DNA of 64,000 nt from Moorella humiferrea. Lineage in GTDB: Bacteria; Bacillota; DSM-521; Neomoorellales; Neomoorellaceae. The stretch is from contig NZ_CP136419.1 of assembly GCF_039233145.1 (NCBI RefSeq), positions 1,338,001 to 1,402,000 on the forward strand. The letters run 5' to 3'. Shown piece after piece: positions 17,597 to 50,261 of the stretch. Both the position numbers and the translations under genes were made by a program. The notes under the pieces are model-generated. The model saw nothing but the letters and a program-made list of their open reading frames with translations, was not told the origin of the DNA and searched no databases. The stretch's first letter is position 1, and each line of letters opens with the position of its first letter.

Positions 17597-17647
17597 AAAA
17601 AGCGTCCTGCCGAAGAAGGATAGATAAGCCCTTCTCCTTCAGGACGC
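17597..17647 (-). terminator. Leader terminator ahead of glnA
   Basis: On the minus strand GCGTCCTG and CAGGACGC form a perfect 8-bp outer stem with a further GA-rich inner stem, followed by TTTTT. It lies between the ANTAR gene and glnA. Its 5' arm is shared with the hexaloop hairpin at 17637-17660, so only one can form. Confidence 0.85.
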
Positions 17648-17660
17648 CGTTGCCCTAAAG
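17637..17660 (-). promoter_or_regulatory. ANTAR-type hexaloop hairpin, glnA antiterminator
   Basis: Arm CTTTAGGGC (17652-17660) pairs over nine positions, two of them G-T, with GTCCTGAAG (17637-17645), leaving the six-base loop AACGGC. A at 1 and G at 4 match the published ANTAR target loops. It starts three bases after the ANTAR stop codon. A second upstream hexaloop was not evident. Confidence 0.65.
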
Positions 17661-17662
17661 GG

Positions 17663-18271
17663 TTAATCCACCTTTTTACCTTTACTGCTGCCGCTCTGAA
17701 GTTCGTGGGCGACGATAATCGCCTCGGCGATGTTTTTCATGGGAACGCACCGATCCATGCTCTGACGCTGCATGCGCCGGTAGGCCTCGGCTTCCGTTAA
17801 TCCCATGGTGTCCATAAGAATCCCCTTGGCCCGTTCAATTATTTTCCGGGCGGCCAGGGTTTCCTTAAGCTTTAAGATTTCCTGCTGCAGGCGGCAAATT
17901 TTTTGGTAATTAGCCAGGGCCGCTTCTATAGCAGGTAACAAGGTGTTCTCCTGCACCGGTTTAATTAAATAAGCAAAGAACGGAAATTCGTGGGTATGGG
18001 CCAGCAAATTCCGATGCCAGGAAGAGGCCAGGAAAATTATCGGGGCTACGCCATCTTCTTCGACGATCCTGGCTACTTCCAAAGGAGTGGTACCTTGGAG
18101 CTCGTTATCCAAAATTACAAGGTCAGGCTGCAGGGTGCGGATCATCCGCAGGGCCTGGCTGCCGTCCGGGGCTTCCCCGGCAATCAAATAGCCCTCCCGC
18201 ACCAATAAATACTTTAAATTCTGCCGGGCAGCCGGGTCGGCACTGGCGATAAAAATTTTGGGCTGTTGCAT
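17663..18271 (-). CDS. ANTAR-domain response regulator, putative transcription antiterminator
   Basis: A 202-residue two-domain protein. Residues 1-120 are a receiver domain: Asp12, phosphoacceptor Asp in VILDNEL near 55, Ser in FLASSW and Lys in LIKP are present, so phosphorylation is possible, though the acidic pair is reduced to AD. A short coiled coil (residues 123-140) leads to the ANTAR domain with KIIERAKGILMDTMGLTEAEAYRRMQ, which binds RNA hairpins. No cognate kinase is in the window. Genes around it are all for ammonia assimilation, and hexaloop hairpins occur in its own leader and in four other nitrogen leaders here. Confidence 0.92.
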   Translation of the reverse strand: MQQPKIFIASADPAARQNLKYLLVREGYLIAGEAPDGSQALRMIRTLQPDLVILDNELQGTTPLEVARIVEEDGVAPIIFLASSWHRNLLAHTHEFPFFAYLIKPVQENTLLPAIEAALANYQKICRLQQEILKLKETLAARKIIERAKGILMDTMGLTEAEAYRRMQRQSMDRCVPMKNIAEAIIVAHELQSGSSKGKKVD

Positions 18272-18295: not shown

Positions 18296-18334
18296 GCTAC
18301 GCCGTTGTAGCACTTTCAAGGACCCCTTCGCCCT
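18296..18334 (-). promoter_or_regulatory. Tandem hexaloop hairpins in the ANTAR gene's own leader
   Basis: Hairpin 1 (18319-18334): AGGGC and GTCCT enclose loop GAAGGG. After a seven-base linker, hairpin 2 (18296-18311): GCTAC and GTAGC enclose loop AACGGC. This two-hairpin form is the ANTAR target architecture. No terminator follows; hairpin 2 lies next to the GAGGGGGC ribosome site, suggesting autoregulation at initiation of translation or by another route. Confidence 0.6.
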
Positions 18335-28500: not shown

Positions 28501-29157
28501 GCGTTTAGTCTCTGGCGGGAGGCCACGCCCCAGGTATTCCATAGGTAGATCATTGTGACTGTAACCCACAAATAGAACTTCGTAGCTACTAAATATCCCC
28601 ACCAAAAAACGTGTGGCCCAGCCTTCGGTAAGATAGGCCCGCCCAAAGTCAATGTCGGTGAGAATTAATTCTTCCGGTTTCTGGTCTACGCAGCCGTGAA
28701 GATAAACAATGCCATTGAATCGGTGCCCCAGGGGCAGGGCAGGAGCACGATATATGGGAACTTCACCGCCAAAAAGTTCGGCTGCAGCTGTAGAAAAATG
28801 CGTATCGAAGTTAGTGGTCACGATCCGGACTTCTTGAGGGCTACGAAATAATGATAAAAGAGCGTAATGCAGCTCTGTTGGGTTTGAATCTTGATTCTTT
28901 ATTATATCCCAGACTAATTTATGAACCCTGGGGCCTTTCTCCTTGAGCCGCCCTAAAAAGCGATCAGGGGCCTCTTTCTCGGGTTCCCACGTCAATAGAT
29001 TACCTGTCTTAGATTCAATCTTTCTGACCAGGTCTCTAAAATTGGGCAAGCTAGACGGCGGACTCATAGATACCCCAGCGCCCGCAAATATAACCAGTCT
29101 CCCATCGACCTGGGCATTAATAAGCTCTTCCGGTAGTTTAATTTTACCTATCCACAT
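25600..29157 (-). CDS. Large SIR2-domain protein, probable NADase defence effector
   Basis: About 1,185 residues. The N-terminal 280 form a SIR2 fold: FAGAGVS at 24-30, TTNFD with N116, YLHG with H154, and VGYSHNDLP. These are the NAD-binding and catalytic residues, so NADase activity is possible. The remaining 900 residues are mostly helical, without motifs I can name; the layout is like DSR- or DUF4020-type defence proteins, a family link I cannot confirm. I choose ATG 29157, just after GGAAGGAG, though the spacing is short; a longer frame to 29271 exists. It follows brxA by 136 bp. Confidence 0.8.
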   Translation of the reverse strand: MWIGKIKLPEELINAQVDGRLVIFAGAGVSMSPPSSLPNFRDLVRKIESKTGNLLTWEPEKEAPDRFLGRLKEKGPRVHKLVWDIIKNQDSNPTELHYALLSLFRSPQEVRIVTTNFDTHFSTAAAELFGGEVPIYRAPALPLGHRFNGIVYLHGCVDQKPEELILTDIDFGRAYLTEGWATRFLVGIFSSYEVLFVGYSHNDLPMEYLGRGLPPETKRYALIPEDETEKWKFRGIELIPYPRSREDRNHNDLVAAVKSWATQTRMGLAEHEQRIKDIVQFPPPLDREQASYIEEAIKDPVKVRIFTRYAETVEWLRWVEEKGAFKPLFSLNNPSDEISQTFAWWFAEKYICRYPEDALAVVQRQGQVLSPLLWQIIASNLWRSEPLPEPKILAKWVAVLLASPNRLPSQGDYLDYLLQKCCRPEYATIAILIFKYLSTPYLVLEPSFTFFAERGHEGKQVTFEVAIPAEHYWLDKAWKEFFKPNLKNLVRDLEPIITGHLKEAHRLLCSVGYADDKWDPVSFTRASIEPHEQDRYPRGIDLLIDAARDIIECLLKHDPERAQIVIQEWALSETPMLKRLAIYGMTIDRNRSSNEKLQWLLTNNWLFVYGLKHEVFQLLKAAYPQADEAVRQRLLNDVEIYWAGSDSGEEDPAAVRRRSYEVYNLLYWLVQIAPHCSLARQKLSEIQDRHPEFQPREHPDLDWYGSEWVGPQSPITVDELLSKPPSDKINFLLTYRGEKFLGPDREGLMSAVREAVTRSFIWSSELVKELELRREWSTDLWDAIISGWQVAHLTETQWEEVLQFLERRTEIWQHGYKIAELLKKVVEKSEGGLSVALLSRAEALTDRLWQELEDYNEKEMENNDNDWLTRAINHIGGIITQFWLLALSRRQAEKGGDWQGIPDKYKTRFERIMSGKSSAAAMGRVIIASQLHFLFSLDRSWTCKKIVPLLNWDIDVQRAVQAWGGYLWWGRWNEALLPELLPLYEQAYNKLPRGLKVFDRLCDHLASIAVRSSVDPLQNGWLDRFIATVDEETRISWANKVAHELTRLSPEAAKEIWDKWIKNYWSRRIDGIPLPLSPAEVGVMVDWALALKPVFSEVVDLIVTGPIPVLRFSSIYYRLAKEKFAEKYPGDTARLLVHLLSGESRLFDYCHELKELCNDIFQSLPPDGIKPLKDHLIRLGCFPLS

Positions 29158-29293
29158 AATCTCCTTCCTTATCATGATCATCCAGAGAAGTGAGAGATGT
29201 CTTTGTATCAAAGGGTACGATCGCTCAACAGGCTCAGCATCTTCATGTGGTAAAACCATCAAATTTACCACTAAAAAGATACAGACCCGACCA

Positions 29294-30016
29294 TTACTTA
29301 TGGGCGATTGTGACCATCTCTAAATCCAAACCCTGACGCTGTATTTCAAACCGTTTAGATTGTCTTATAGCTGCCACCGAAATATCCAGGTGAAACGGAA
29401 AAGCTGAGGGTAGCTTTGGCAATTGGTGCAGGATCACCGCTGGGGTGGATTCCGAATACAAAAGGGCTTCTAAAAACCATAACTGAACACTAGCGCTGGC
29501 CGGGCCTTTTTTGGCGGTGGGGATATAAACGCCTTTTACGGCCGTATCCTGGAGAACGCCCCAGTCTACCATTGAACGTACCACTCGTTGGCTCGCCCGG
29601 CGAACAGTTGACCTTTCCCCCCACCGCTCCGCCAGTCGGCGGTAAATCTGCTCTAGAGAAACTTCATTCTGCAGTGTCAACAGACGACCAATGATATCCG
29701 CTATATCGCGAAAAAATGGATAGGCCAAAAGCGTCATGCCCCAATGCAACCAGAGTCTTGTATCGGGGCCGTCCTCGGTTAAAATTCCTAAAGCCCGCTC
29801 CTGTAATGACCGATGTTTCTGCGGTACCCTGACCCAAATCCGAGTTAACACGGTTATGGTCTTCCTGCGTGCCTCTCTATTTTGGCATTCTGACTGCAAG
29901 AAATCATCAAGGTATTTCCGTACCTCAGCAATGTCTGTTTCCGTTGCGGCTTTCCAGGCGGCGGCATCCAGCCATTCCAGCTTAACTCTCCGGTCAAAAC
30001 CGATATTTAAGGCCAT
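29294..30016 (-). CDS. brxA: BREX protein BrxA (DUF1819)
   Basis: A 240-residue helical protein beginning MALNIGFDRRVKLEWL, the last gene of the BREX set. The start at 30016 is fixed by GGAGGA nine bases upstream, just beyond the pglZ stop. WGERSTVRRASQRVVRSMVDWGVLQ resembles the winged-helix DNA-contacting part of BrxA. Identification rests on position after pglZ plus size and fold pattern. Confidence 0.82.
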   Translation of the reverse strand: MALNIGFDRRVKLEWLDAAAWKAATETDIAEVRKYLDDFLQSECQNREARRKTITVLTRIWVRVPQKHRSLQERALGILTEDGPDTRLWLHWGMTLLAYPFFRDIADIIGRLLTLQNEVSLEQIYRRLAERWGERSTVRRASQRVVRSMVDWGVLQDTAVKGVYIPTAKKGPASASVQLWFLEALLYSESTPAVILHQLPKLPSAFPFHLDISVAAIRQSKRFEIQRQGLDLEMVTIAHK

Positions 30017-30018
30017 GA

Positions 30019-31968
30019 TCAATGCTCCTCCCAAATCCTGACAAAAGGAACGACAACCTCTTCCAAAGATATCCCACCATGGCTTACAACTTCTTCACCC
30101 TCAGAAACAAAGGCCGACCGGCCCCTGGCCAGCAGAACGGAGTAACCCTGGGGTAAACCAAAACCAGGCCAACAGATGGCATTTTCTATTTCTTTCATCA
30201 TCTGCTGTCGAAAAACGTCGTAATGATAAATTCTGGCCCGCTCACCGCGGGACTCAGCCAGGACCCCGTCCGGCAAACGGCCCTTCCCCCTGGCCGTAAT
30301 ATTACCGTGATCCGAAGTCAGATAGACGGCAAATTTGTTTTTAAGGAGATGATCAATTAGCTGTATCAGGTAACCCTGTTCGGCCCACAGTCTGATTTGC
30401 TGGTGCATACCAGCTGTTCCCAGCTCCATGCCATGCATGATTCTGTCCACTTTATCTATAACCAGACCCACGATCTCGAACTGTGATCCTAAAAATTCTC
30501 CAATTTCACTTGCCAACTCATCACCCAAACCTTTATGGTAGTAGGTATTTCCTTTCCTGACCCCGCTGTCTTCCCAAAATTTATGCCAGTGCTGTTCTTC
30601 TTTCGAGGTTGTCGTTAGGGAGTCCTTGAAATACAAGGGCGGCTCTGCAGCGAACAGTGCTTGCCGCGAGATAGAAGTTAAGGTCGGTACCCAGGCAAAG
30701 ACCTGGTTTTCCTCGAGTCGCCACACCGGGCACCTGTCTCTCAGGAAATTGCGGATAACCAGCCACTGATCCAACGCCAGGCCGTCAATTACGAGCAGAG
30801 CAATGTTTTTTTCCCCTTCTTTGGCGCGCAGATGAGCCAGATAACGGGGTATGTGATGCACCATTACTGGTTTGGACGTGTAAGAAAGGTTGGCCAAAGA
30901 ACCGTAGCGCACGACCATCCAGCTCGCAAAGCGCTCTTCCAATTGATCGTGCAATTCTTCAATTTGTGGTTTACTTCCAGTTTTTATGTCCTGATTCAGT
31001 TCGCCGCTAAGTACAATCAATTCCGCCCACAGAACGGCCAGGCGCTGCCAATCCTTGTGGGACGCTGTTTCTCCAGGCAAATCTTGTCGTATCTTCTCTA
31101 GCAGCCACTTGGTCCTGCGCCTTTCCTCAGCCTGCTTATCGAAGAGCACACCTGCCCGGACCCACCCGGGCATACCTTCCGTACTCGCAACCGGAACAGG
31201 CCTTAAACTGCCTTCCAAGAACAGGTTGTCGATGTACACCCGTATGTCATAATGGTCAAAGGGGACCTCGGTGAAATTCTCTCCTCTGGCCGTGCTTTCC
31301 AGGAATCTACGCCATTTTTCTTGCAGAAAAGCAAAAAAGGCTTCCCTGCTGGGGATGATGTCTTCCAGCGGCCAGTCCTTAAAAACGCTCTTTTCTCTTA
31401 AACAATGGATAAGGTGTTCGTCCAAAACCCTTGGCACAGTCACAAAGTTGCAATGCCGCGAAAGCAGCATCTTCATCAGTTCGACCGGTGAATTGATAAG
31501 GTCGGGTATTATGCCAAAAACGCGTTTTAGGATAAAATCCTTGGTCGCCTTCTCCCCCAGCGCAGGACCATTGTAATTCTGGTATGCCCTGTAAAGCTTA
31601 TCCATGTCCGACTTCTCCACAGCCGCAACTACCGGATAGCTGAGTTTGGGAAAGATATCGGCCAGGCTGAAGAAAAGCTTATGACCCCTCTGCCATACAT
31701 CGAAGGGGAGGCGGCGCAGTTCCTGCGGGCCGCCTTGTACCACCACTATTAAATGTGCCGCTTCGCCCCGATCCCACCTTGAGCGATAGTTTGCTTCATA
31801 TGCATAACGAAAGATGATGGGATCACTAAAAACAAGGACATCAAGCCCCATTTCCCCTAAGGTCGAGAGAACATCTTCTTCCAAGAGCAAGCCGTCGGGG
31901 TCAGCCACTAAAGTAAGCCTTGATACGCAGGGCTTTAAGTTCTGAAGGATAAGGTCACGCCAGTTCAT
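30019..31968 (-). CDS. pglZ: BREX protein PglZ, alkaline phosphatase-like
   Basis: A 649-residue protein starting MNWRDLILQNLKPC at ATG 31968, which overlaps the helicase stop as ATGA. The C-terminal alkaline-phosphatase superfamily core shows VIDGLALDQWL (metal Asp), TSISRQALFA (nucleophile region), VDRIMHGMELG and SDHGNITARGKGRLP. PglZ is one of the two proteins found in all BREX types and is needed for both methylation and phage block. An upstream extension to 32052 is out of keeping with the family. Confidence 0.94.
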   Translation of the reverse strand: MNWRDLILQNLKPCVSRLTLVADPDGLLLEEDVLSTLGEMGLDVLVFSDPIIFRYAYEANYRSRWDRGEAAHLIVVVQGGPQELRRLPFDVWQRGHKLFFSLADIFPKLSYPVVAAVEKSDMDKLYRAYQNYNGPALGEKATKDFILKRVFGIIPDLINSPVELMKMLLSRHCNFVTVPRVLDEHLIHCLREKSVFKDWPLEDIIPSREAFFAFLQEKWRRFLESTARGENFTEVPFDHYDIRVYIDNLFLEGSLRPVPVASTEGMPGWVRAGVLFDKQAEERRRTKWLLEKIRQDLPGETASHKDWQRLAVLWAELIVLSGELNQDIKTGSKPQIEELHDQLEERFASWMVVRYGSLANLSYTSKPVMVHHIPRYLAHLRAKEGEKNIALLVIDGLALDQWLVIRNFLRDRCPVWRLEENQVFAWVPTLTSISRQALFAAEPPLYFKDSLTTTSKEEQHWHKFWEDSGVRKGNTYYHKGLGDELASEIGEFLGSQFEIVGLVIDKVDRIMHGMELGTAGMHQQIRLWAEQGYLIQLIDHLLKNKFAVYLTSDHGNITARGKGRLPDGVLAESRGERARIYHYDVFRQQMMKEIENAICWPGFGLPQGYSVLLARGRSAFVSEGEEVVSHGGISLEEVVVPFVRIWEEH

Positions 31969-34811
31969 GGGACTACACCTTCTACGTAAATAATGGTAAT
32001 CGCGCTTAGTTCCGGCAAGATTTTTTCCTTCTGCTGTAACCGCAGGGCCCATTCTTTCTCCTGGCGTTCCAGTTCGGCCAGGCGGTGCTGGCGCACGGCG
32101 GGCAGGCCAACCCTCATAATGGCCTGCCGGCGAATTTGGAACGCATATCGGCCTTTTTCCCGCTCTTTCTGCAGGTGCTCTTCATACTGGTTCTTGAGCT
32201 CCAGGAAAAGATTATGCCCGTATCGTACAGCCTGTTTCTGGAGCCTCTCAAAGATTTCCTCGGATTTTTCGCCTGTAATATAACCCTGGATTTCGAGGGA
32301 GGTTTCTTCCTGTAATAACAAATCCCATATCCTGCGGGCGGTGGGCATGAGTATTTTGCCGTCTTTTTCCTGATGGAACAAGGGTAGAACCCGAACCTCA
32401 CGCATGTTTTCCGCCATAAGAGATATCCGCCATAAAGACCAGTAGCCGCTTATCTCCTGCGGCAGTCCTTTGAGCCTGACCTTCGCAAAAGGCTGACCCG
32501 CCACCGCTAGGGGCAGGCGGGAGACCAGCCCGCGAACTCTCGGTTCTTCCAGGCTGAGATAAGACATTGAGTGCTTATCTGCTTCCTGCCGGGAGAAAAC
32601 CACGTCCTTCATAGTGAAGCCGTCGGGCCAGGTTAAATCATAACCGGCCAATTTGGGCTTTACTATGCCGCCTTCGCTCACCAAAAAGTTAACGGTCATG
32701 CGCTCTACCCAGTACGGAAGCGGATGGCCGGGAATTTTCTCCACCAGCCGGGAATCGAGCTCTGCCTCTTCTCCCAAAAGCCGGTTGGCCGTAGTTGCTT
32801 CCTGGATGCGCTGCCGAAGTTCAGCTTCCAGCCGTTCAATCCTGGACTCAACTTCTTCCGGCCTGAGGATAGCCTCTTTATACAGGTCCTCGAAATCCGG
32901 CGCTACTTCAGCCGAGTCGAGAACATCGCTCATCTTGTCAACGCCGAAATCCGCCAGGATTGCGGCCAGTTTTTCCTGGAGGACTTCCTGCACCCGGTAT
33001 TCAACAGTGTCCTGCAGGACGAAGTTAAGTGCCCGGACAACGTGTTCCTGGCCGATGCGGTCCACCCGGCCGATGCGCTGCTCCAGGCGCATGGGGTTCC
33101 ACGGCAGGTCGTAGTTGATGACCACGTGGCAAAACTGCAAATTCAAGCCCTCGCCGCCGGCATCGGTGGATACGAGCACCCTGGCGGGACCGGCAAATTC
33201 CTGCTGGACCCTCCGCCTTTCTTCCAGCCCCATGGACCCGTTTAGACAAACGACGCTAAAGCCCCTGTTTTCCAGAAACTCCTTAAGCATCTCCTGGGTC
33301 GGAATGAACTCGGTAAAGATGAGAAATTTGAGCTCGGGGTCGTTCTCTTCGGCCTGCAGCCGGTACATCCACTCCAGCAAGGCTTCGGCCCGCGCGTCGG
33401 GCAGGGACTCGCACTGACGTGCCAGGGATAAAAGACGCTTGACCTCTTCCCGTTCACTGGCGAAGGCGACTAAACGGTGCTTCAGAATTTGCTCGAGCTG
33501 CTCCTGCCCGTCGAGGTCCCACCAGTCTTCTTCCAGCTCTATTTCACTGTTAATCTGAAAAGGAGCTTCCTGTTCGATCGCTTCCAGTCTCCGTTGCAGG
33601 GCGGTCCGGATTGCCCTGGTGCTGCTGGCTACCAGGCGCTGCATGAGAACCATCAAAAAGCCGATATAGTTTCGCTTTTCTTTCAGCGCCCGGTTGTATC
33701 CTTCCCGCACATATTCCGTCACCGCTTCATATAGTTCCCGCTGCTTTTGGTGCCGGGATTGCCACACTACGGTCACCAGCTGGGTGCGGCGCGGTTTGAA
33801 TAACGGCTGACCCTTCTCATCAATGGCCCGGCGTTTTTCGGTGCGGATTACATACGGGGCCACTCTCTCCCGCTTTATGGACTCGACGCCGGGGAAAGCC
33901 TCCCTATCTAGGAGAGCCATGAGCCGGTGGAAGGAATCAGTCTTCCCCTGGTGGGGCGTCGCCGTGAGAAGGAGAAGATACGGTGCCGCTTCAGCCAGCG
34001 CTTGGCCTAAGCGGTACCTGGCCACGGCATCCGTGCTGCCGGCAATTCTGTGAGCTTCATCGACAATAATCAAATCCCAACCCGCAGCGATAAGGTTTTC
34101 GAAGCGTTCCCGGTTATAGCGGCTTACCTGGTCCCTGCTCCACCCCCGGCGCGATTCCAAAGGCTTTACGGCATCCATGGGAACGACTACCTGGTCAAAC
34201 CGCTGCCAGACGTTGGCATCCCATTCAAAGCACGATAGAGTTGTGATCTCGGCGGGCATCAGCAGGTGAAAGCGTTCCCGAAAGCGGTTTTCCATTTCCT
34301 GCACCCACTGCATCACCAGGCCCTTCGGCGCCACCACCAGCGTGCGCCTGACGAGTCCCCTGAGCTTCAACTCGCGCATGATTAAACCGGCTTCTATTGT
34401 TTTGCCGAGGCCGACCTCGTCAGCCAGAAGATAGCGGACCCTGTTGCCGGAAACAGCCCGGGAGAGGGCGTAGAGCTGGTGGGGCAGAGGAGTGACGCAG
34501 CCTTCCAGAGGCGCCAGCAGGATATCCGGCCGGGCCAGGCTTTCAGCGATTCGGGCCGCGGCGACGGTATAAATCAGCCTCTCCCGACTGGTTAAGCCTG
34601 CCTCTGTTATCGAGGATAATTCGTTTTCCTGAAGGCGCAAAACCGCGTCCCGGCCCGGTACCCAGACGCGGTAGACGTTCTTTCCCCACAGGTCCAGGGC
34701 TTCGATAACCTTGACCGGTTCACGGTACTCCCGGCTCCAGGCCCAATCACCAGGCCGCCATATACCATCCCGACTCAAAATTGACACCTCACCGGCAGAT
34801 AAATCATTCAT
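31965..34811 (-). CDS. brxHII: BREX type 3 helicase BrxHII (SNF2/HepA-like)
   Basis: A 948-residue superfamily 2 ATPase. ADEVGLGKTIEAGLI near residue 130-144 is Walker A, IIVDEAHRIAGS near 250 is motif II, LLTATPHQGKTDSFHRLMAL is motif III, and LVSTDAGGEGLNLQ with NPMRLEQRIGRVDRIGQ near 580-615 are motifs V and VI. It overlaps pglXI by 8 bp and pglZ by 4 bp, so the operon is tightly coupled. In BREX type 3 this helicase replaces the BrxL/BrxHI proteins of other types. Confidence 0.93.
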   Translation of the reverse strand: MNDLSAGEVSILSRDGIWRPGDWAWSREYREPVKVIEALDLWGKNVYRVWVPGRDAVLRLQENELSSITEAGLTSRERLIYTVAAARIAESLARPDILLAPLEGCVTPLPHQLYALSRAVSGNRVRYLLADEVGLGKTIEAGLIMRELKLRGLVRRTLVVAPKGLVMQWVQEMENRFRERFHLLMPAEITTLSCFEWDANVWQRFDQVVVPMDAVKPLESRRGWSRDQVSRYNRERFENLIAAGWDLIIVDEAHRIAGSTDAVARYRLGQALAEAAPYLLLLTATPHQGKTDSFHRLMALLDREAFPGVESIKRERVAPYVIRTEKRRAIDEKGQPLFKPRRTQLVTVVWQSRHQKQRELYEAVTEYVREGYNRALKEKRNYIGFLMVLMQRLVASSTRAIRTALQRRLEAIEQEAPFQINSEIELEEDWWDLDGQEQLEQILKHRLVAFASEREEVKRLLSLARQCESLPDARAEALLEWMYRLQAEENDPELKFLIFTEFIPTQEMLKEFLENRGFSVVCLNGSMGLEERRRVQQEFAGPARVLVSTDAGGEGLNLQFCHVVINYDLPWNPMRLEQRIGRVDRIGQEHVVRALNFVLQDTVEYRVQEVLQEKLAAILADFGVDKMSDVLDSAEVAPDFEDLYKEAILRPEEVESRIERLEAELRQRIQEATTANRLLGEEAELDSRLVEKIPGHPLPYWVERMTVNFLVSEGGIVKPKLAGYDLTWPDGFTMKDVVFSRQEADKHSMSYLSLEEPRVRGLVSRLPLAVAGQPFAKVRLKGLPQEISGYWSLWRISLMAENMREVRVLPLFHQEKDGKILMPTARRIWDLLLQEETSLEIQGYITGEKSEEIFERLQKQAVRYGHNLFLELKNQYEEHLQKEREKGRYAFQIRRQAIMRVGLPAVRQHRLAELERQEKEWALRLQQKEKILPELSAITIIYVEGVVP

Positions 34812-37470
34812 CCAGCCGCATCAGGGCGTTGTCGTAGTACATCAGGAGGGTGGTATCTTCCTGGAGGACGGTGTCCGGTATGCGCCTGGCCACCTCTACG
34901 ATGGTCTTGTAGTCTTTAGCAGCCCAGCACGCCTTGAATCCCGCCCGCAGCGCTTCGGTACGGAACACTTTGAGTCTGCTTCTGCCTTCTTTATATTCTT
35001 CGAACTCTTTGAGGAGGGCCTTCTCGCGCATCTTCTCCAGGTCAGACTGCCTGCCGGGGTCGGGGACGTACCAGCGGCCGTTATCGTCTTTAAGGAAGTT
35101 CTGCTCTAAAAGCTCTGCCAGCTCCGGCAGCTTTTCGTGCGGCGCTTTGTGCAGTTCTCGCAGGAATTTGGGGTGGATCTCCTGGTAGGTCTGCGGCTTC
35201 TTTTCGAGTTCACTGCGCAGCCACTGGATGGAAGACTTTTCATCGGTTACAAAAAGGGATAATTGCTCAATTTCCTGGACCATAAAACGCTTCTTATCAT
35301 ATTCCACCACCTGGTCGGGGAGGAAGTACATGCCGTCTCTTTCCGGGAAGCGCTGTTTTAAACCGGCGTAAAACTCCGCCGCCCCCATAGGTACGGTGAC
35401 TCCCCGCTGGACGTGGAAGGCCACCATCCGGTCATAGAGGAGGAAATTCTGCCGCTCGGCAATGACCTCCGCTTTGCCGCTTTTCTCCACAAAGACCGGC
35501 AGCTGTTTGAGGTGGGTGCGGACAAAATCCCAGACTCCTTCTTCGGTCCCCGCCTCAAGCTGAAAGCGCTTTTCCAGGCCGCCGTTGGGCTTGTAGGCGG
35601 AGATGACCAGGTCCTGCTTCACCGCGGTGGTCGAGGTAACCTGCTTGAAGGTCCCCTGCTTTTTGTCCAGAGTCCGCACGTCGGCAATAACGAACCCAGC
35701 CCGCAGAATGGCTTCCTGGATGGCGTTCCAGATCCGGTTCTGGGAATTGTGAAACACCACCGTCATCCACCGGCCGGGCTTTAAGACACGGTAATATTCA
35801 GCAAAGCACTTTTCCATGAGCTCCTGGTATTCCCGGGGGCCTTTGCCCTGCACTTTGTTTTCAACGGCTTCGGGCTTATTGTTAGTAAAAACCCTGAGCC
35901 AGGCTTCCCAGAGGAAGTTGAGCTCGGAATACATGAGATTGCCGCCGAAGGGTGGGTCGGTGAAGATGTAGTCAATACAGGCATCTCTAAGCAGGGTGCT
36001 ATCGGCTGAGGAACAATAAGTGGTGCAGGCTCCAACATACTCCTTTAAAAGTGCCCTGGTCAAATTCTTTATTTTAGTGCTGTTGAGTATATACCAAGGA
36101 GAAACTTCAACTACCTGAGAAGCTATATATAATGTTCCACTAAGATATTGATTAACCTGAGAGTAGTGACGTGGAACGTACCGGGCGAGTCTGGACATCC
36201 CAAGCACAAGCTGCTCAACGAGAAAAAGTAGACGGTTTCTTAGACGCAAATTACCTAATGATTTTGGTTTACTCATACAAGCAGCTAATACCCACAAATT
36301 CCGCCTGGTGTAAAAATGGTGAACATGAGTAATCCCATGTGATACTTTAGGCTGTTCGGTATTGTAGCCCTCCGGCATGCGGGCGGTAGGATACCAGTAC
36401 GGTATCTCGCTCTCCTCGATCTTCCGGATCAGCTCCAGGTCGTAATCGTCGGGCTCTTTTTCATACCTCTTATTCCCCACCGAATAATTTATCAGCACCG
36501 GCACCTGGCGGGCGCGGGTGATAAACTCCCCGATGTCCCGGTCGTACACCCTTTCCGTGGCCCTCTCCAGGGTCCGTTTAGTGAGATCTGCCCCGCAGTG
36601 GGGGCAGGGAAACTCGTTCCGTACTTTACCTTCTTCTTTATCTACCGCCACTTCCCAGAAGACAAGCTCTCCGGAACAGCTGGAACAGATAAACACGTCG
36701 GACCAGACGGTGTAGTTGATTTTCCCCATAATGGGGTTGCCCTTGGCGTCTTTCTGCACTTTCCCATCCACCACGTGCTGCGTCCGGTACATCCAGCCGC
36801 ATTCTCTTTCCACTTCGTCCAGAATCCGCCGGGCTTCCCGCTCAAAAGCCCGGACATCCACCGGCGTGTTGTAGTTGTAGGCAATGAAGGTGGCGGCAGG
36901 GGAGAGGTCGATTAAGATAGCCTTGCGTGCTCCAAGCTTAGAAAAGGGCCGGCCTTTTTCATCAAGGATAGTGCCATCATCCTGCACAATGTAACCCAGG
37001 GATTCTACGGCCTTGCGGTCCCCGCATAAACTCGCCGCAACGCCGGTCATGCCCGTGCCGCAGAAACCGTCTAAGACGATGTCTCCCGGCTCGGTGTAGT
37101 GGAGGATATAACGCATGATGGCCCTGTGCGGCACCTTGGTGTGGTAGGAATGGGCATTGTAAATGGGATCGTTCTTGCCCTCTGATACATCTGCCGCAAA
37201 GGGCTGCCGGCGGTAAGCGTCGTTATCCGGGTCATACGGCTTGCCGTGCTCTTTGATAAAATCCCCTATGAACGGGTTCGGGCAGGCCGTGTAATAGGGC
37301 GGGTCGGAAAGGTTGATGATGTCCTCATCTTTGGCAATGGGGAATCCCTCGATATGCCTGACCAGGTCCAGGTGTTCCTTGGTAAGCCGGAAACGTGAAC
37401 GTTCTTGCCATTCCCTTCCTTCTTTGTTCCTTTCCGGTGTATCTATGAAAAGTTGCTCTTCTTTGGCCAT
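34804..37470 (-). CDS. pglXI: BREX type 3 adenine-specific methyltransferase PglXI
   Basis: An 888-residue DNA methyltransferase that marks self DNA. The SAM motif is LDGFCGTGMTGVAA at about 133-146. The catalytic motif is either LSDPPYYTACPNPF near 55 or FTDPPFGGNLMY near 510; both DPPY/F forms are present. A zinc-ribbon-like CSSCSGELVFWE and CPHCGADL lie between. It is located between brxC and brxHII as expected. Target site cannot be predicted from sequence. Confidence 0.92.
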   Translation of the reverse strand: MAKEEQLFIDTPERNKEGREWQERSRFRLTKEHLDLVRHIEGFPIAKDEDIINLSDPPYYTACPNPFIGDFIKEHGKPYDPDNDAYRRQPFAADVSEGKNDPIYNAHSYHTKVPHRAIMRYILHYTEPGDIVLDGFCGTGMTGVAASLCGDRKAVESLGYIVQDDGTILDEKGRPFSKLGARKAILIDLSPAATFIAYNYNTPVDVRAFEREARRILDEVERECGWMYRTQHVVDGKVQKDAKGNPIMGKINYTVWSDVFICSSCSGELVFWEVAVDKEEGKVRNEFPCPHCGADLTKRTLERATERVYDRDIGEFITRARQVPVLINYSVGNKRYEKEPDDYDLELIRKIEESEIPYWYPTARMPEGYNTEQPKVSHGITHVHHFYTRRNLWVLAACMSKPKSLGNLRLRNRLLFLVEQLVLGMSRLARYVPRHYSQVNQYLSGTLYIASQVVEVSPWYILNSTKIKNLTRALLKEYVGACTTYCSSADSTLLRDACIDYIFTDPPFGGNLMYSELNFLWEAWLRVFTNNKPEAVENKVQGKGPREYQELMEKCFAEYYRVLKPGRWMTVVFHNSQNRIWNAIQEAILRAGFVIADVRTLDKKQGTFKQVTSTTAVKQDLVISAYKPNGGLEKRFQLEAGTEEGVWDFVRTHLKQLPVFVEKSGKAEVIAERQNFLLYDRMVAFHVQRGVTVPMGAAEFYAGLKQRFPERDGMYFLPDQVVEYDKKRFMVQEIEQLSLFVTDEKSSIQWLRSELEKKPQTYQEIHPKFLRELHKAPHEKLPELAELLEQNFLKDDNGRWYVPDPGRQSDLEKMREKALLKEFEEYKEGRSRLKVFRTEALRAGFKACWAAKDYKTIVEVARRIPDTVLQEDTTLLMYYDNALMRLDE

Positions 37471-37484
37471 AACTCTTCACCCCT

Positions 37485-40400
37485 CTATTCCAGAACGATC
37501 CTCACTTTCTGCGGATCCCTGCCGCGCGTGAGAGACTGGATATAATCCTCGAAGCGCTGCTTTAACTCAGAGACTGTACAGGGCGTTCCGCCTTGTGCCA
37601 GAGCTTTCTTTAAGTCGGCTGCGGTGATCGAAACCTTTTCCATGCCGGACAGCACTTCCTGAACAGCCTTTACAAACGATGCGTCCACCATATATGGCAG
37701 CTGCTGTTCTTTGATCACCTGTTCCAGTGCTTTTTGCTGATCCGGCTTCAAAAGATAGATGTTTTCCTTTACCGTCGGGTCTTCCAGGTTGGCGACCAGT
37801 GTCCTTTCCCAATCCTCGCATAGCCTTTCCAGGTCGTCCTCCAACCGCCTGAGCGCCGCGTCAGCCGGAAGCTTAATCTGCTCCTGTGCCGGCCGGTAGT
37901 TGCAGTGAGGACAGATGGGCGTTTTTTCCAAATCATCTCTGGTGAGGCTGAAGCACGTTTTCAGCTCCGCCAGACGGTTTTGGAAGTCAGTAAGCTGGGC
38001 CCGGGGCATCAACTCGATACCGGCCAGTCTGCTGAGTTTGCTCAACCGCTCATCTTTGAGAAGCCCGGATTTCTTCTGATCTCCAGTCGCATTTAACCTG
38101 GCTTTGGTATGGGCCTCAAGGTAGGCCTCAATGTAAGAATTCTTGAGCTCTAAGAGCACCTGCACGAGCTCCCGGCGAAGGTCAGGAACGGATACTTCAT
38201 CAAGACCGGATAGTTTTCCTTTGAGTTCTTCACGCCGCTCCCTGGCTTTTGCCGTCCAACCGGCATCCGCAGGAAGCACGGCTTCGGCGGTACTGAGGTA
38301 GGAGAGCAGAGGCTGAATCTCATTGGCCAGGCCGGCCAGTTCTTCAACCCTCTTCAGGGTGGCAAGGTACGCCTTCTGCTTATTTATATCCCGCTCGGAG
38401 TAGCGGAAGTTTTTCAACTTCCCGGGAGTGTTAAAAACCCGGAGTGACTCCAGAAACCCTTTGAAACCGGCCAGTTCATCCCTTAAACCGGTTTTCTTTT
38501 TCTCATCGAAGAGAGAAATACCCCATAAGGATATCTCTTGCTGGATCGCCTGCTGGGCCTCCACTGTGCGTTCCAGAAGCTTATCCACTGCTTCCTGAAG
38601 CTGCCTTACCCCTTCTTCACGAGTAGATTGATTGACGATGAGCCCAGGCGGCAGCCCCAAAAATTCAAACAGAACCTGCAAGGGACCAAGGGGAAGATCC
38701 TTGGGACGCTCGATGTGTTTGAACTTGATAAGTTCCTCCAGGGGAACTTTGCCCAGCTCCTCCAGGTTGGAAGCATCTATCTTCTTCCCCGGCATGCTTA
38801 AAGTAACATCGCCGCTATAGATCAAGCTCGCCAGGATGACGACCACCCACTCCGGCTCCAATCTGAAACGGGGCTCAAACTCCACACCGCGAAAATCGGT
38901 AATTATTTCGCCCCGGTTGAAGACCTGACCCGGGCCCTTTTTGTCCAGCTGTCCCAGGATGTGTTTGGCATAACGGGAATTTTGCGGCCTTAACTTATCT
39001 CCGTCCAGAAGCTCCAGGGCATCGAGGACGGCAGCCCCCTGCCTGGTCCTGATGCTGCCGAGGATCCACTTTATCGCCTCCTGGGCTGCCTGAGGCCGGT
39101 TCTTTACGGTAACCAGGATGGAAAAGGCCGGGTATTCGGGCGCCAGCTCCTGGAAGCAGGGCGCGAGACACGAGGAACCCACCAAGTTTACCAGATCACG
39201 AACCGACACATGAGGAGTGGCACTGTGCTTAACCCACTCGACGAATTTTTTAGTTGCTCCCCGGTAGGTAACTTCATAAGCCGTGGTGATGTTGTTCCGC
39301 AGCCATTCGACTATCTTTTTTAGCTGATCGTTAGCCTTATTTTCATAAACCTGCCGCGTTCCTTTCGAAGCCGTGCTGGCCATCTCGCAGGCGCCGGCGA
39401 AGAACTTCAGGGCACGGTCAAAATCCTCGTCACGCTGCACCAGCCGGAAAAACACTTCATCGGGCTTTTTCTCATCCTCAAAGGGCGGCGGGTCAAAGGG
39501 CTGCAGAAAATAGAGGTAAAAATCCCTGGGCGGGTGGGCCGTAGAACGTTCGTTGGGAGCCCCGAAGAATAAATACCCTAACCGGGTAGCCTTTTTCTCG
39601 CGCCACTCAATTTCGTGCTCCCAGATCTGGAAATTGGGAACATACGTGGCTTCGGGGCACTCCATGGCCCGGGCGAGGGCCCTGAAATAATAACGGTCCA
39701 ACTGGTTCGAGGTAAGTGTCTCGGCTTTCTGCTCAATTAGCGAATCAAAATCAATGTCTTTTTTCAGGTCAAGGTAGTACTGCCCGTTGTCCTGGTTGAA
39801 AGAAATAAACTGGCCGCTCACCGTCCTTAAGATCTCGCGCAAGATTGATTCGACGGTGGTTTTAAGAAACTCAGCATCCTCTTCCGGCAAGGGCAGGTAA
39901 AGGCAGAGGTCGTCGCGGAGTTCTTCAGCCGTGACCCCTATGGGAGCGTAAATATCTCCTGTTGTCAGCCGGTGAACGCTTAAAGCGTGAATGATGCGGA
40001 AGGCCACAGGTTTATACTGCGGCCTTGTAAAAGCCTGCTGGACACGGCTTTCCAGCACCTGGCTCTTCTCAATCACTTCGCGAATGTCCGGGTCACTGCG
40101 GAAAGAAGGATTGTCCTTTAAGTTTTGCCAGTAAGAGTCATAAGCGATGAGGCCGGGAGCAGTTTCCGGCACTTCTCTGTCGAGGAGCTTTTTCATGGCG
40201 GCGCTGATGGTTTTTAGAACCTCGCGCTTTTCGGCTACATAGACCCGTTCAAATGTTTCAAGGTATGCCGGATGCACGGGGAAAAGAGCGACGAATTCGT
40301 CCATGCGCTCGGCCAGGGTGCCGTATAATTTGGTGAAACGCTGCAGGTGCTCCCTTATAAGAGCCTTCTGCCGGTCATCCTTGCGCAGCAGGCGCTGGGC

Positions 40401-41165
40401 AACTACGTAGGCTATGTCTTCACGAACAATTCGTATCTGTTCAAAGCGGTCTTTGACCCGGCGCAGGGTTTCAGCCACAAACTGAAAGCGTGGGCTATCG
40501 AAAATGGCTTCCTGCACACCGGCCATGAAACGAAACCGGGTGAGCCGGCAAACCTCCCCGATTTCTCGCAAAAAGTTCAGGTCGAGGATTAGCTCCTGAT
40601 CTTTGCGCGTACGCAGGTAGTCCAGGAGTTCATCGACAACCAGCAAGAGCCCGTGATCCAGGTAAACTTCCTGGAAAGCATTCATCATCTCTATAAAAGG
40701 GTCTTTGTTGTTGGTAACTTTATCGGCTTCAGGAAAACGGTATTTCACCCCAAGATTAGCCAGCTGTTCTTCCAGCTCAGCACAAATAATGTTCCTGAGG
40801 GACATCGTGGTGGAACCGATCTCGGTCCTGATAACCTTGAACTTGCCAGCGATAACCTCCGCTTTTTTAGCCACAGCAGGATGCCGTATCTCCGTGACCA
40901 GGTCTGGATATTCGGCTATAGCAGATAGTACCGACATTAAATGCGATTTGCCGGTACCGTAGTTACCGACGATCAAAAGCCCCTTATTATCCTGGGGATG
41001 TTCGTATTGGAGTTGCGGAAAGACAACTTCAGTAATCTGCTCGGCCATCCGTTCCGAGATCACGTAGCTTTTTACCAACTCACCGGCCCTGCTTTTGGCA
41101 TCAGCTTCCCGTAACTGCACTATAGTTTCGACCGGTTCAAAATGTATCAGGTCAGCGTATTTCAC
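37485..41165 (-). CDS. brxC: BREX ATPase BrxC (PglY)
   Basis: A 1,226-residue P-loop protein. Walker A is GNYGTGKS at 67-74 and a Walker B-like [12 protein letters not shown] lies near 175-186. A zinc-finger-like CPHCNY is in the C-terminal third, with long coiled-coil stretches from about 830 to 1,050. This is the DUF6079/BrxC type found in BREX type 3. It starts 30 bp after brxF and is followed by pglXI 14 bp later. Confidence 0.93.
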
Positions 41166-41195
41166 CGTATTTTCCCACCTTTTCCTGAAATCTCT

Positions 41196-41654
41196 TTACC
41201 CCAAAGGACAAACAAGGGCATCGACTTCATAATACTTTCTGTACTCCGGGTGATCCGGCTCGGCATAAATCAGCGCACCACCTTCGAACTTGCCGTTCCA
41301 TGCGGCAACGATAGTTCGATTGCGGCTTACCTGTTGAAGTAAACGTAAAGGGTCCTGTTGAAGAACAGGATCAAAAAGTATTTCTGTATTATCCAGAAGG
41401 ACAGTGTCCTTTTCCGTTTCGCCTATGATCGTCTCCACTATTCTCGGCAGGCGTAACGCTCGTATTTTAGCGGGATATTCCAGGAGTTTCTGGCTCAGCA
41501 TGAGGTTCAGATTAATATAGGGATAACCCTCATCTTTGGCTATTTGAACAAGAATTTTGGTTTTTCCGGTTGCAGCTGACCCGACCAGTAAAACCAGTCG
41601 ATAATACCTCGACCGGGCTGCTACTATTTGTTTTTTGAGTTCATCTGTTTTCAT
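41196..41654 (-). CDS. brxF: BREX type 3 protein BrxF
   Basis: A 152-residue small P-loop ATPase with Walker A GSAATGKT at 25-32 and TVLLDNTEILFD as a Walker B-like strand. It opens the operon; its small size, P-loop and place before brxC are the defining features of BrxF in type 3 systems. No promoter with good consensus was found directly upstream. Confidence 0.88.
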   Translation of the reverse strand: MKTDELKKQIVAARSRYYRLVLLVGSAATGKTKILVQIAKDEGYPYINLNLMLSQKLLEYPAKIRALRLPRIVETIIGETEKDTVLLDNTEILFDPVLQQDPLRLLQQVSRNRTIVAAWNGKFEGGALIYAEPDHPEYRKYYEVDALVCPLG

Positions 41655-46225: not shown

Positions 46226-46287
46226 CTTTGCTCATCCGGCAACATCGCCGTACCATTTTGCTTTTGCCCAAGGACGTCCTCGCCCTT
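46220..46287 (-). promoter_or_regulatory. ANTAR-type hexaloop hairpins in the glnA2 leader
   Basis: Three small hairpins in order on the minus strand: AAGGGC/GTCCTT with loop GAGGAC (46270-46287); CGGC/GCCG with loop GATGTT (46237-46250); and GAGC/GCTC with loop AAAGAC (46220-46233). The last occupies the 5' arm of the terminator, so the two folds exclude each other. All loops have G at position 4. Confidence 0.6.
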
Positions 46288-46433: not shown

Positions 46434-46479
46434 TTGCAAGGGGTTGCAAAGGCGTAACTCCGGCGGGCAATGGCGTCCG
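46434..46479 (+). promoter_or_regulatory. ANTAR-type tandem hexaloop hairpins in the asnB leader
   Basis: TTGCA/TGCAA with loop AGGGGT (46434-46449), a 14-base linker, then CGGGC/GTCCG with loop AATGGC (46464-46479). The 3' arm of the second can also pair weakly with CGGGT at 46488-46492 just before TTC, which may be a weak terminator. No clear promoter was found. Confidence 0.5.
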
Positions 46480-46542
46480 ATAAAAGGCGGGTTTCAAGCA
46501 AGGGTTAACTTATTCACCATGCCTGCTGGGGGGAATTTTAGC

Positions 46543-48398: not shown

Positions 48399-48426
48399 TT
48401 GACAGACGCCGGAATGTTAGTATAAT
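48399..48426 (+). promoter_or_regulatory. Sigma-A promoter of amt-glnK
   Basis: TTGACA, a 16-base spacer and TATAAT. It gives a leader of about 210 bases that contains two hexaloop/terminator switches. Confidence 0.85.
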
Positions 48427-48459
48427 AAATATCAAAATCAAGCAAAGGAGTTTGGTTGT

Positions 48460-48475
48460 GGGGTAAAGGAGCCCC
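48460..48475 (+). promoter_or_regulatory. First ANTAR-type hexaloop hairpin of the amt leader
   Basis: GGGGT pairs with GCCCC around loop AAAGGA (A at 1, G at 4). Its 3' arm is part of the 5' arm of the terminator at 48470-48497. Confidence 0.55.
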
Positions 48476-48497
48476 GGTACTGCAAAGTACCGGGGCT
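48470..48497 (+). terminator. First leader terminator of amt
   Basis: AGCCCCGGTACT and AGTACCGGGGCT form a perfect 12-bp stem with a GCAA tetraloop, followed by TTTACTTT. The T tract is interrupted, so strength is uncertain. Confidence 0.65.
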
Positions 48498-48511
48498 TTT
48501 ACTTTATCCCT

Positions 48512-48529
48512 CGGAGCAACGGGGCTCTG
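48512..48529 (+). promoter_or_regulatory. Second ANTAR-type hexaloop hairpin of the amt leader
   Basis: CGGAGC pairs with GCTCTG around loop AACGGG (A at 1, G at 4). Its 3' arm lies within the 5' arm of the hairpin at 48521-48556. Confidence 0.55.
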
Positions 48530-48556
48530 TATGGGTTTTTGCCCGTACGGAGCCCC
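48521..48556 (+). terminator. Second leader hairpin of amt, terminator-like
   Basis: A 15-bp stem, with G-T wobbles but no mismatch, joins GGGGCTCTGTATGGG with CCCGTACGGAGCCCC. It is followed by TATTGTTT, a weak T tract, and then by AAGGAGG, so it could also act on the ribosome. Confidence 0.5.
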
Positions 48557-48641
48557 TATTGTTTAAGGAGGTGGTGCTTTTTTACCTGTGGGCAACGCCG
48601 TCCGCCAAAAACATCAAAGTTCCCAAAAAGGAGGCTCCCAC

Positions 48642-50261
48642 ATGAAAATCCTGAGGTTACCCGTTCTTTATGCGTGTTTAATCCTGGCCCTCATGTTGTT
48701 ATTGAGCCAGGCCCTGCCCGCCTGGGCCGGCGACCCAACCGGTGCTGCCACCGGCGGCATCGCCGACATTCCGGCGGCGCAAACAGGTAATCCTTCTTTA
48801 GTAGAGCTGGCGACTGCAGCCGGTAAGTTGAAAATCGGCCTTAATTTCGTTTGGACCCTCCTTGCCGGTTTCCTGGTCTTCTTTATGCAGGCCGGTTTTG
48901 CCCTCGTGGAAACAGGCTTCACACGGGCCAAAAACGCCGCTCATACCATGGCCATGAATCTTATGGTATTCCTGGTTGGCGCTGTAGGCTTTTTTGTCCT
49001 GGGCTTTGGTCTGATGTTCGGCGGCGTGGGGTCCGTGGCTAACTTGGGCGGTACCCCGCCCCTGACCAGTGAATTAACAGTCGGCGGGTGGGGTTTGATG
49101 GGGCTGAAGGGCTTTTTCTTAAATGGTGACGCCTATGATGTAGGTGTTTTTGCCCTTTTCCTCTTCCAAATGGTCTTCATGGATACGGCCGTGACCATTC
49201 CTACCGGAGCCATGGCCGAACGAGTTAAATTCAGCGCTATTGTCATAGGTTCCTTCTTTATTGCCATGTTCCTCTATCCCATTTTCGGCAATTGGGTCTG
49301 GGGCGGAGGCTGGCTTTCCCAGCTTGGCAGCAGGTTGGGATTGGGTCACGGTGCCGTGGATTTTGCCGGTTCCGGGGTAGTCCATTCCATCGGCGGTGCT
49401 GCCGGTTTGGCCGGGGCCCTCATCCTAGGACCACGTCTCGGTAAATACCGGGACGGCAAGCCGGTAGCTATGCCCGGCCATGATATTCCCATGGCCATCT
49501 TGGGTACTATCATCCTCTTCTTCGGCTGGTTCGGCTTTAACCCTGGCAGTACCCTGTCCGGCAACGACCTGCGCATCGCGGTGGTAGCCGTCAATACCAT
49601 GATGGCCGGAGCCGTCGGCGGCCTGGCCGCCATGCTTTATACCTGGTGGCGCCAGGGCAAGCCCGATCCTTCCATGATGTGTAACGGTGTTCTGGCCGGC
49701 CTGGTGGCCATTACCGCTCCTGCGGCCTTTGTCAATGGACCGGTAGCCTGCCTGATTGGCGCCGTAGCCGGAGTCCTGGTTGTCTGGAGCGTTTACTTCT
49801 TCGATCACGTCCTCAAGATCGACGATCCGGTAGGCGCCATATCCGTCCACCTGGTTAACGGCCTCTGGGGCTTACTCGCCGTAGGGCTTTTTGCTGACGG
49901 CACCTATGGCGCCGGCTGGAACGGCGTTGGTGCTGACACCTACCTGGGAGTTGCTGGCCAGGGCGTTACCGGCCTCTTCTACGGCGATCCCGGCCAGCTG
50001 GTAGCCCAGCTAATCAATATGGCGGCAGTCTTCATCTGGGGCTTTGGTGCTTCCTATGTCTTTTACAAGGTTCTCGACAAGGTCATTGGTATTCGCGCCA
50101 ACCCCGAAGCTGAAGAACAGGGCCTGGACATCCCCGAAATGGGCGCTCTGGCTTACCCTGACTTTCTCCTGGCCTTTAACGATACCTACAGCCCGGGACC
50201 GGCACCTGCCAGGCAAACTGCTTACGCTCCCCGCCGGCAGGAAATACCGGTTCGCAATTAG
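48642..50261 (+). CDS. amt: Ammonium transporter Amt
   Basis: A 539-residue channel. It begins with a signal-like hydrophobic segment at ATG 48642, set by AAGGAGG ten bases upstream; a GTG 54 bases earlier has no ribosome site. Eleven transmembrane helices follow the N-terminal LNFVWTLLAGFLVFFMQAGF with ALVETGFTRAKN. The pore His pair is in VHSIGGAAGLAGA and in VHLVNGLWGLLA. The C-terminal tail is longer than usual, ending with a Pro/Arg-rich stretch. It pairs with glnK, whose PII protein blocks Amt when nitrogen is plentiful. Confidence 0.96.
   Translation: MKILRLPVLYACLILALMLLLSQALPAWAGDPTGAATGGIADIPAAQTGNPSLVELATAAGKLKIGLNFVWTLLAGFLVFFMQAGFALVETGFTRAKNAAHTMAMNLMVFLVGAVGFFVLGFGLMFGGVGSVANLGGTPPLTSELTVGGWGLMGLKGFFLNGDAYDVGVFALFLFQMVFMDTAVTIPTGAMAERVKFSAIVIGSFFIAMFLYPIFGNWVWGGGWLSQLGSRLGLGHGAVDFAGSGVVHSIGGAAGLAGALILGPRLGKYRDGKPVAMPGHDIPMAILGTIILFFGWFGFNPGSTLSGNDLRIAVVAVNTMMAGAVGGLAAMLYTWWRQGKPDPSMMCNGVLAGLVAITAPAAFVNGPVACLIGAVAGVLVVWSVYFFDHVLKIDDPVGAISVHLVNGLWGLLAVGLFADGTYGAGWNGVGADTYLGVAGQGVTGLFYGDPGQLVAQLINMAAVFIWGFGASYVFYKVLDKVIGIRANPEAEEQGLDIPEMGALAYPDFLLAFNDTYSPGPAPARQTAYAPRRQEIPVRN

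Follow-up and report, generated by a model that had tools for sequence, protein, structure and literature searches.

The window, as we call the whole 64,000-nucleotide stretch of DNA analysed here, comes from the 2.67-Mb, single-contig genome of a heat-loving acetogen of the Moorella type. It contains an ammonium transporter gene, amt, whose product shares 89% identity with that of Moorella thermoacetica DSM 21394, followed by a gene for a glnK-type PII protein. The gene asnB precedes amt on the same strand, and the glutamine synthetase gene near these two sits on the opposite strand. The closest genomes compared with the window belong to the same genus, and G016 represents another genus. The amt locus comprises the following features.

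48399..48426, plus strand: amt promoter TTGACA-16-TATAAT, a 12/12 match to the consensus, with TTGACA and TATAAT kept in the aligned relatives
48437..48456, plus strand: hexaloop hairpin P1a, loop AAAGGA at 48444-48449, stem ATCAAGC/GTTTGGT kept in five genomes
48459..48476, plus strand: predicted hexaloop hairpin P2a, loop AAAGGA at 48465-48470, stem GGGGT/GCCCC
48470..48507, plus strand: terminator T1 by folding, a 12-bp stem at 48470-48497 (dG -24.3), then TTTACTTTAT and a T-rich tail ending at 48507
48512..48529, plus strand: predicted hexaloop hairpin P2b, loop AACGGG at 48518-48523, stem CGGAGC/GCTCTG
48521..48564, plus strand: terminator T2 by folding, a 15-16-bp stem at 48521-48556 (dG -32.0) with the tail TATTGTTT
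48625..48644, plus strand: ribosome-binding site and ATG (at 48642) of amt, read from the sequence
48642..50261, plus strand: amt, ammonium transporter, domain match PF00909
50273..50611, plus strand: gene 3' of amt for the glnK-type PII protein, domain match PF00543

Judging from the promoter, the amt RNA is expected to start near 48433. Downstream of this perfect consensus promoter the leader is arranged as two modules, two hexaloops with T1 and then one hexaloop with T2. The 3' arm of P2a is the 5' arm of T1, and the loop and 3' arm of P2b extend into T2, so that both P2a/T1 and P2b/T2 show the overlap of hexaloop and terminator that marks ANTAR targets. Both loops of module 1 carry A at position 1 and G at position 4; the stems have 8 and 6 pairs, and the hairpins are spaced 21 nt loop to loop. 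An earlier note on this DNA had described an AAAGGA hexaloop overlapping a 12-bp terminator stem and an AACGGG hexaloop overlapping a 15-bp stem, and both are indeed present, as P2a/T1 and P2b/T2. It overlooked P1a, whose presence gives module 1 the usual composition of an ANTAR target, two hexaloops with a single terminator. The contrast it drew between this switch and usual two-hexaloop targets was thus mistaken, P1a and P2a being the usual pair, and its idea that each hexaloop guards its own stem holds for module 2 and fails for module 1. Its remark that the T tracts are imperfect was apt, the terminator score d being 25-36 for T1 and 13.7 for T2. An Rfam search of the leader returned zero families at the gathering threshold.

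The two stems are far more stable than shuffled sequences (z -6.5 for T1 and -6.8 for T2, with 0/200 shuffles as stable in either case), as is the folding of the whole leader (z -8.5). P2a excludes T1 and P2b excludes T2. When growing prefixes of the leader were folded, P1a and P2a formed first and were displaced once the 3' arm of T1 emerged, and P2b likewise preceded T2 and gave way when the 3' arm of T2 emerged, which is the order required of an antiterminator.

Module 2 differs from module 1 in its upstream hairpin. A search for a P1 hairpin closely spaced before P2b yielded just one weak candidate, an ACCGGG hexaloop (48489) that lies 29 nt upstream in the 3' arm of T1, and we therefore file module 2 as a single-hexaloop variant and not as a full ANTAR target. 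The candidate was set aside as likely due to chance, since a stabler mini-hairpin overlaps and competes with it, G016 lacks it and its spacing is long.

Comparison with relatives shows that two switches in series are a recurring design in which the second switch is less constrained. Both modules were seen in the window and in G007, and compensatory changes on both sides of the stem distinguish P1a and T1 between genomes. Loop position 1 may be G in relatives, and position 4 is G without exception. Two modules, both with paired hexaloops, also precede amt genes of a distinct family, about 50% identical, in five genomes of the Moorella clade (L119-L123); module 2 there has a P1 hairpin, for example TCCT-AATGTT-GGGA. 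In Desulfosporosinus metallidurans (L003) two single-hexaloop modules occur, the first of which begins directly after the -10 box and so leaves no room for a P1. Two modules in series were further found in 5/68 upstream regions of the survey described below, which together with these cases underlies our view of the design as recurrent.

The second switch appears dispensable in places, T2 being weak in the window, negative in score in G004 (d -18) and decayed in G013 (d -52). It is conceivable that only switch 1 (P1a, P2a and T1) is regulatory, T2 being a terminator that leaks or is decaying, or else a hairpin for RNA stability, and P2b a relic. This reading draws on the poor T2 tail in the window and in G004, where the second module is otherwise present, on the decay in G013, on the retention of T1 in all relatives compared, and on the want of a clear P1 for P2b, given that published eut antitermination requires both hairpins closely spaced (PMC8934654 and PMC3369931). 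We nevertheless regard it as unlikely. The window, G004 and G007 retain the P2b loop identity (A1, G4), the P2b stem and a strong stem in T2, and the T2 score is good in G007 and G016. Terminators with one hexaloop have also been conserved upstream of glnA in several genomes and, immediately downstream of the -10 box, in Desulfosporosinus, and single hexaloops are bound by EutV (PMC8934654). Two switches in series, as the earlier note proposed, are the best reading in view of mutual exclusivity, folding order, the relatives and co-occurrence with ANTAR genes, with T2 as the weaker half.

In G016, T1 and a strong T2 are retained, the P2b stem is poor and amt is broken. There (L293) and in G012 (L292), amt is broken or fragmentary and parts of the regulatory leader persist. 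Upstream of amt in two other loci, L085 and L002, some 100 nt are inserted between T2 and the fourth hexaloop described below; the inserted DNA carries an additional long hairpin (GGGGTTTCCGGC...GCCGGGAAACCCC) and, after it, a T-rich run.

The position of the leader raises another explanation, in which T1 and T2 serve mainly as a double terminator of asnB and the hexaloops merely modulate read-through from asnB into amt. Although asnB shares the strand of T1 and ends at 48384, a distance of 86 nt from it, the 12/12 promoter lies between the two, and G004 retains the leader with a divergent glnA leader, and not asnB, upstream of it. We consider this explanation very improbable.

Beyond T2, outside the stretch that the earlier note had singled out, which opens at the promoter -35 (48399), lies a fourth hexaloop hairpin, HX4, which that note also overlooked.

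48588..48605, plus strand: HX4 (hexaloop 48590-48603), GTGGGC-AACGCC-GTCCGC, loop at 48594-48599, with GTGGGCAAYGCCGTCC conserved in four genomes
48587..48642, plus strand: candidate ribosome-site hairpin TGTGGG...GCCGTCC / GGAGGC.T.CCCACA, the same pairing occurring in four genomes with a loop of 16-26 nt

In these four genomes GTGGGCAAYGCCGTCC and GGAGGCTCCCACA are conserved while the length between them varies (26, 26, 16 and 21 nt). The two elements are able to pair and would then cover the amt ribosome site; HX4 uses both upstream strands of this pairing, so that the two structures are mutually exclusive. This conserved alternative pairing suggests, as a lead, a translational gate on amt. 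The energy of the ribosome-site hairpin is unexceptional against shuffles (z -0.9), and its predicted probability dominates in short fragments (0.6-0.99) and falls to 0.04 in the full leader, where HX4 reaches 0.76. A hairpin AAGGAG-GTGGTG-CTTTTT (48571) was tried as the P1 of HX4 and rejected; its spacing fits in the window, but it is unconserved.

We surveyed 80 amt upstream regions from the phylum, 68 from ANTAR-positive and 12 from ANTAR-negative genomes, with a detector for a hexaloop (R at position 1, G at position 4, at least 3 pairs) that contributes its 3' side as the 5' arm of a terminator. Such modules were found in 40 of the 68 ANTAR-positive and none of the 12 ANTAR-negative regions, genomes being counted without correction for kinship and thresholds having been set by hand after the window was seen. 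Controls gave 2/68 on the reverse strand, 1/240 in shuffles and 5/68 for wrong-loop motifs. Hexaloop-terminator modules before amt thus track the presence of an ANTAR gene. This bears on the idea that a leader peptide or a non-ANTAR regulator works T1 and T2, to which short ORFs after T2 in some relatives lend some weight, for example MGKQVRKSW, which has its own ribosome site and is conserved in L119-L121. In the amt family of the window, however, the short ORF is unconserved: GTGGGCAAYGCCGTCC was discarded as its start, the frames differing among genomes and a ribosome site being absent before the GTG in G007 and G013. As modules follow ANTAR genes and Rfam gives no known leader above threshold, we hold this idea to be hardly likely at all. 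The pattern GGGCRANGNNGTCC searched across genome G000 showed no overall enrichment over its control (8+9 versus 10+7 matches), and although 5/17 matches precede nitrogen genes within the window, the pattern alone is no evidence, its overall count being no higher than the control.

The only ANTAR protein of the genome is encoded within the window, with genes for glutamate synthase and for a second glutamine synthetase (glnA) beside it, and the same hexaloop stems occur before asnB, the ANTAR gene and glnA, in related genomes too.

17663..18271, minus strand: ANTAR gene; domain matches to a receiver and an ANTAR domain
17602..17655, minus strand: between the ANTAR gene and glnA, a single hexaloop GGGC-AACGGC-GTCC that overlaps a terminator, the hexaloop being found in five further genomes (L289-L295)
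18296..18333, minus strand: dual hexaloop in the leader of the ANTAR gene itself, with loops GAAGGG and AACGGC, from the sequence
46442..46478, plus strand: dual hexaloop of the asnB leader, with loops AAAGGC and AATGGC and no terminator, from the sequence

Inspection by eye found no P1 for the glnA hexaloop, which makes a possible natural single-hexaloop antiterminator. The ANTAR gene may regulate itself through its own leader, where the 3' arm of P1 is complementary to the ribosome site over a shorter pairing than in asnB. In the asnB leader, the 5' arm of P2 and the ribosome-site region 46521-46531 could form a helix of 11 positions. One of its pairs has changed on both sides (C-G to T-A) when the window is compared with G007; G012 has a G-U there, and in G013 the pair is broken. 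The asnB leader is a candidate for ANTAR-activated translation. The leader of the other glutamine synthetase gene carries a hexaloop GGGC-GAGGAC-GTCC (46272-46285, minus strand) with G at position 1 and, downstream of it and not overlapping it, a terminator-like hairpin. The second amt gene of the genome (L098, G000:C1:168779-170035, minus strand) has a dual hexaloop, GGTTAC-AAGGGT-GTAACC and GCC-AAAGAA-GGC, and one terminator.

The amt leader resembles the eut leaders controlled by EutV/EutW of Enterococcus faecalis, which likewise have two short, closely spaced A1/G4 hexaloop hairpins, a P2 arm shared with an intrinsic terminator and a receiver-ANTAR regulator (PMC8934654 and PMC3369931); deletion of P1 in eut leaders abolished induction, according to PMC3369931. 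Whereas the eut leaders are described with one terminator per ANTAR element, the amt leader adds a single-hexaloop terminator and possibly a translational gate. That ANTAR targets precede amt is already known: PMC3369931 describes ANTAR antitermination at nitrogen genes, ammonium transporters included, and Desulfotomaculum acetoxidans-type regulons with terminator-bearing targets before ammonium transporter, P-II and glutamine/glutamate synthase genes. The covariance search in this 2012 report listed 13 attenuators in six transcription units in D. acetoxidans, which already implies several per unit, and it was the one open-access source retrieved for serial ANTAR terminators before amt. Its main text does not describe a leader gated in series, modules with one hexaloop or an added gate at the ribosome site, features that the amt leader has or may have. 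Nor did we find, in the open-access literature with this main text included, a description of serial gating within a leader whose second module has a single hexaloop, or of such gating paired with a ribosome-site gate. NitR of Clostridium saccharobutylicum, likewise an ANTAR regulator, induces GS/GOGAT genes on nitrogen limitation according to a passage of the review PMC6316151, which mentions neither an amt leader nor tandem switches. In mycobacteria and actinobacteria, ANTAR targets that act on translation also place hairpins at the ribosome-binding site, but there binding covers the site and represses, whereas here binding of HX4 would uncover it (PMC8164766).

Taken together, we think it likely that the amt leader holds two ANTAR-type antitermination switches in series, with a possible translational step beyond. 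Transcription of the amt-glnK operon would begin at a strong constitutive promoter, with T1 and T2 keeping the operon off, provided that both terminate efficiently. By analogy with known systems, the signal activating the ANTAR response regulator would most likely be nitrogen limitation (PMC6316151 on NitR; PMC3369931). An ANTAR dimer would bind P1a and P2a as RNA polymerase releases them, keeping the 3' arm of P2a out of T1 so that polymerase passes; sixty nucleotides on, the same or another dimer would hold P2b and block T2. With two terminators in series, each with ANTAR docking hairpins, amt would be on only when the ANTAR protein overrides both. Read-through would then approximate the product of two antitermination events, giving low leak when off and possibly a multiplicative, steep response; the steepness is a matter of logic and would require the two gates to share both the protein they respond to and the range over which they do so. 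HX4 may add a third step, at translation, in competition with the hairpin that covers the ribosome site. It is tempting to speculate that one ANTAR protein gates the amt mRNA three times, by two antitermination steps, of which the second works through a single hexaloop, and one uncovering of the ribosome site, with a multiplicative response of ammonium import, a fuller scheme that we consider possible but doubtful.

Serial gates on one leader would offer a simple route to a tight off state and a steeper response with one regulator and no cooperative binding. Leaders of the clade with two full modules, with a full and a single-hexaloop module, or with a full module and a decayed one are natural variants that allow the serial-gate idea to be measured, and the single-hexaloop modules would test whether P1 is truly required, as the eut work holds. 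ANTAR-driven translational activation, if true, would be of opposite sign to the mycobacterial reports.

Elsewhere in the window, a defence island on the minus strand (25600-41654) shows BREX-type matches to BrxF, BrxC, PglX, the BrxH helicase and BrxA and includes a Dsr1-like protein (25600-29271, minus strand). A SAM riboswitch (Rfam RF00162; 58110-58223, minus strand) lies upstream of methionine-pathway-like genes.
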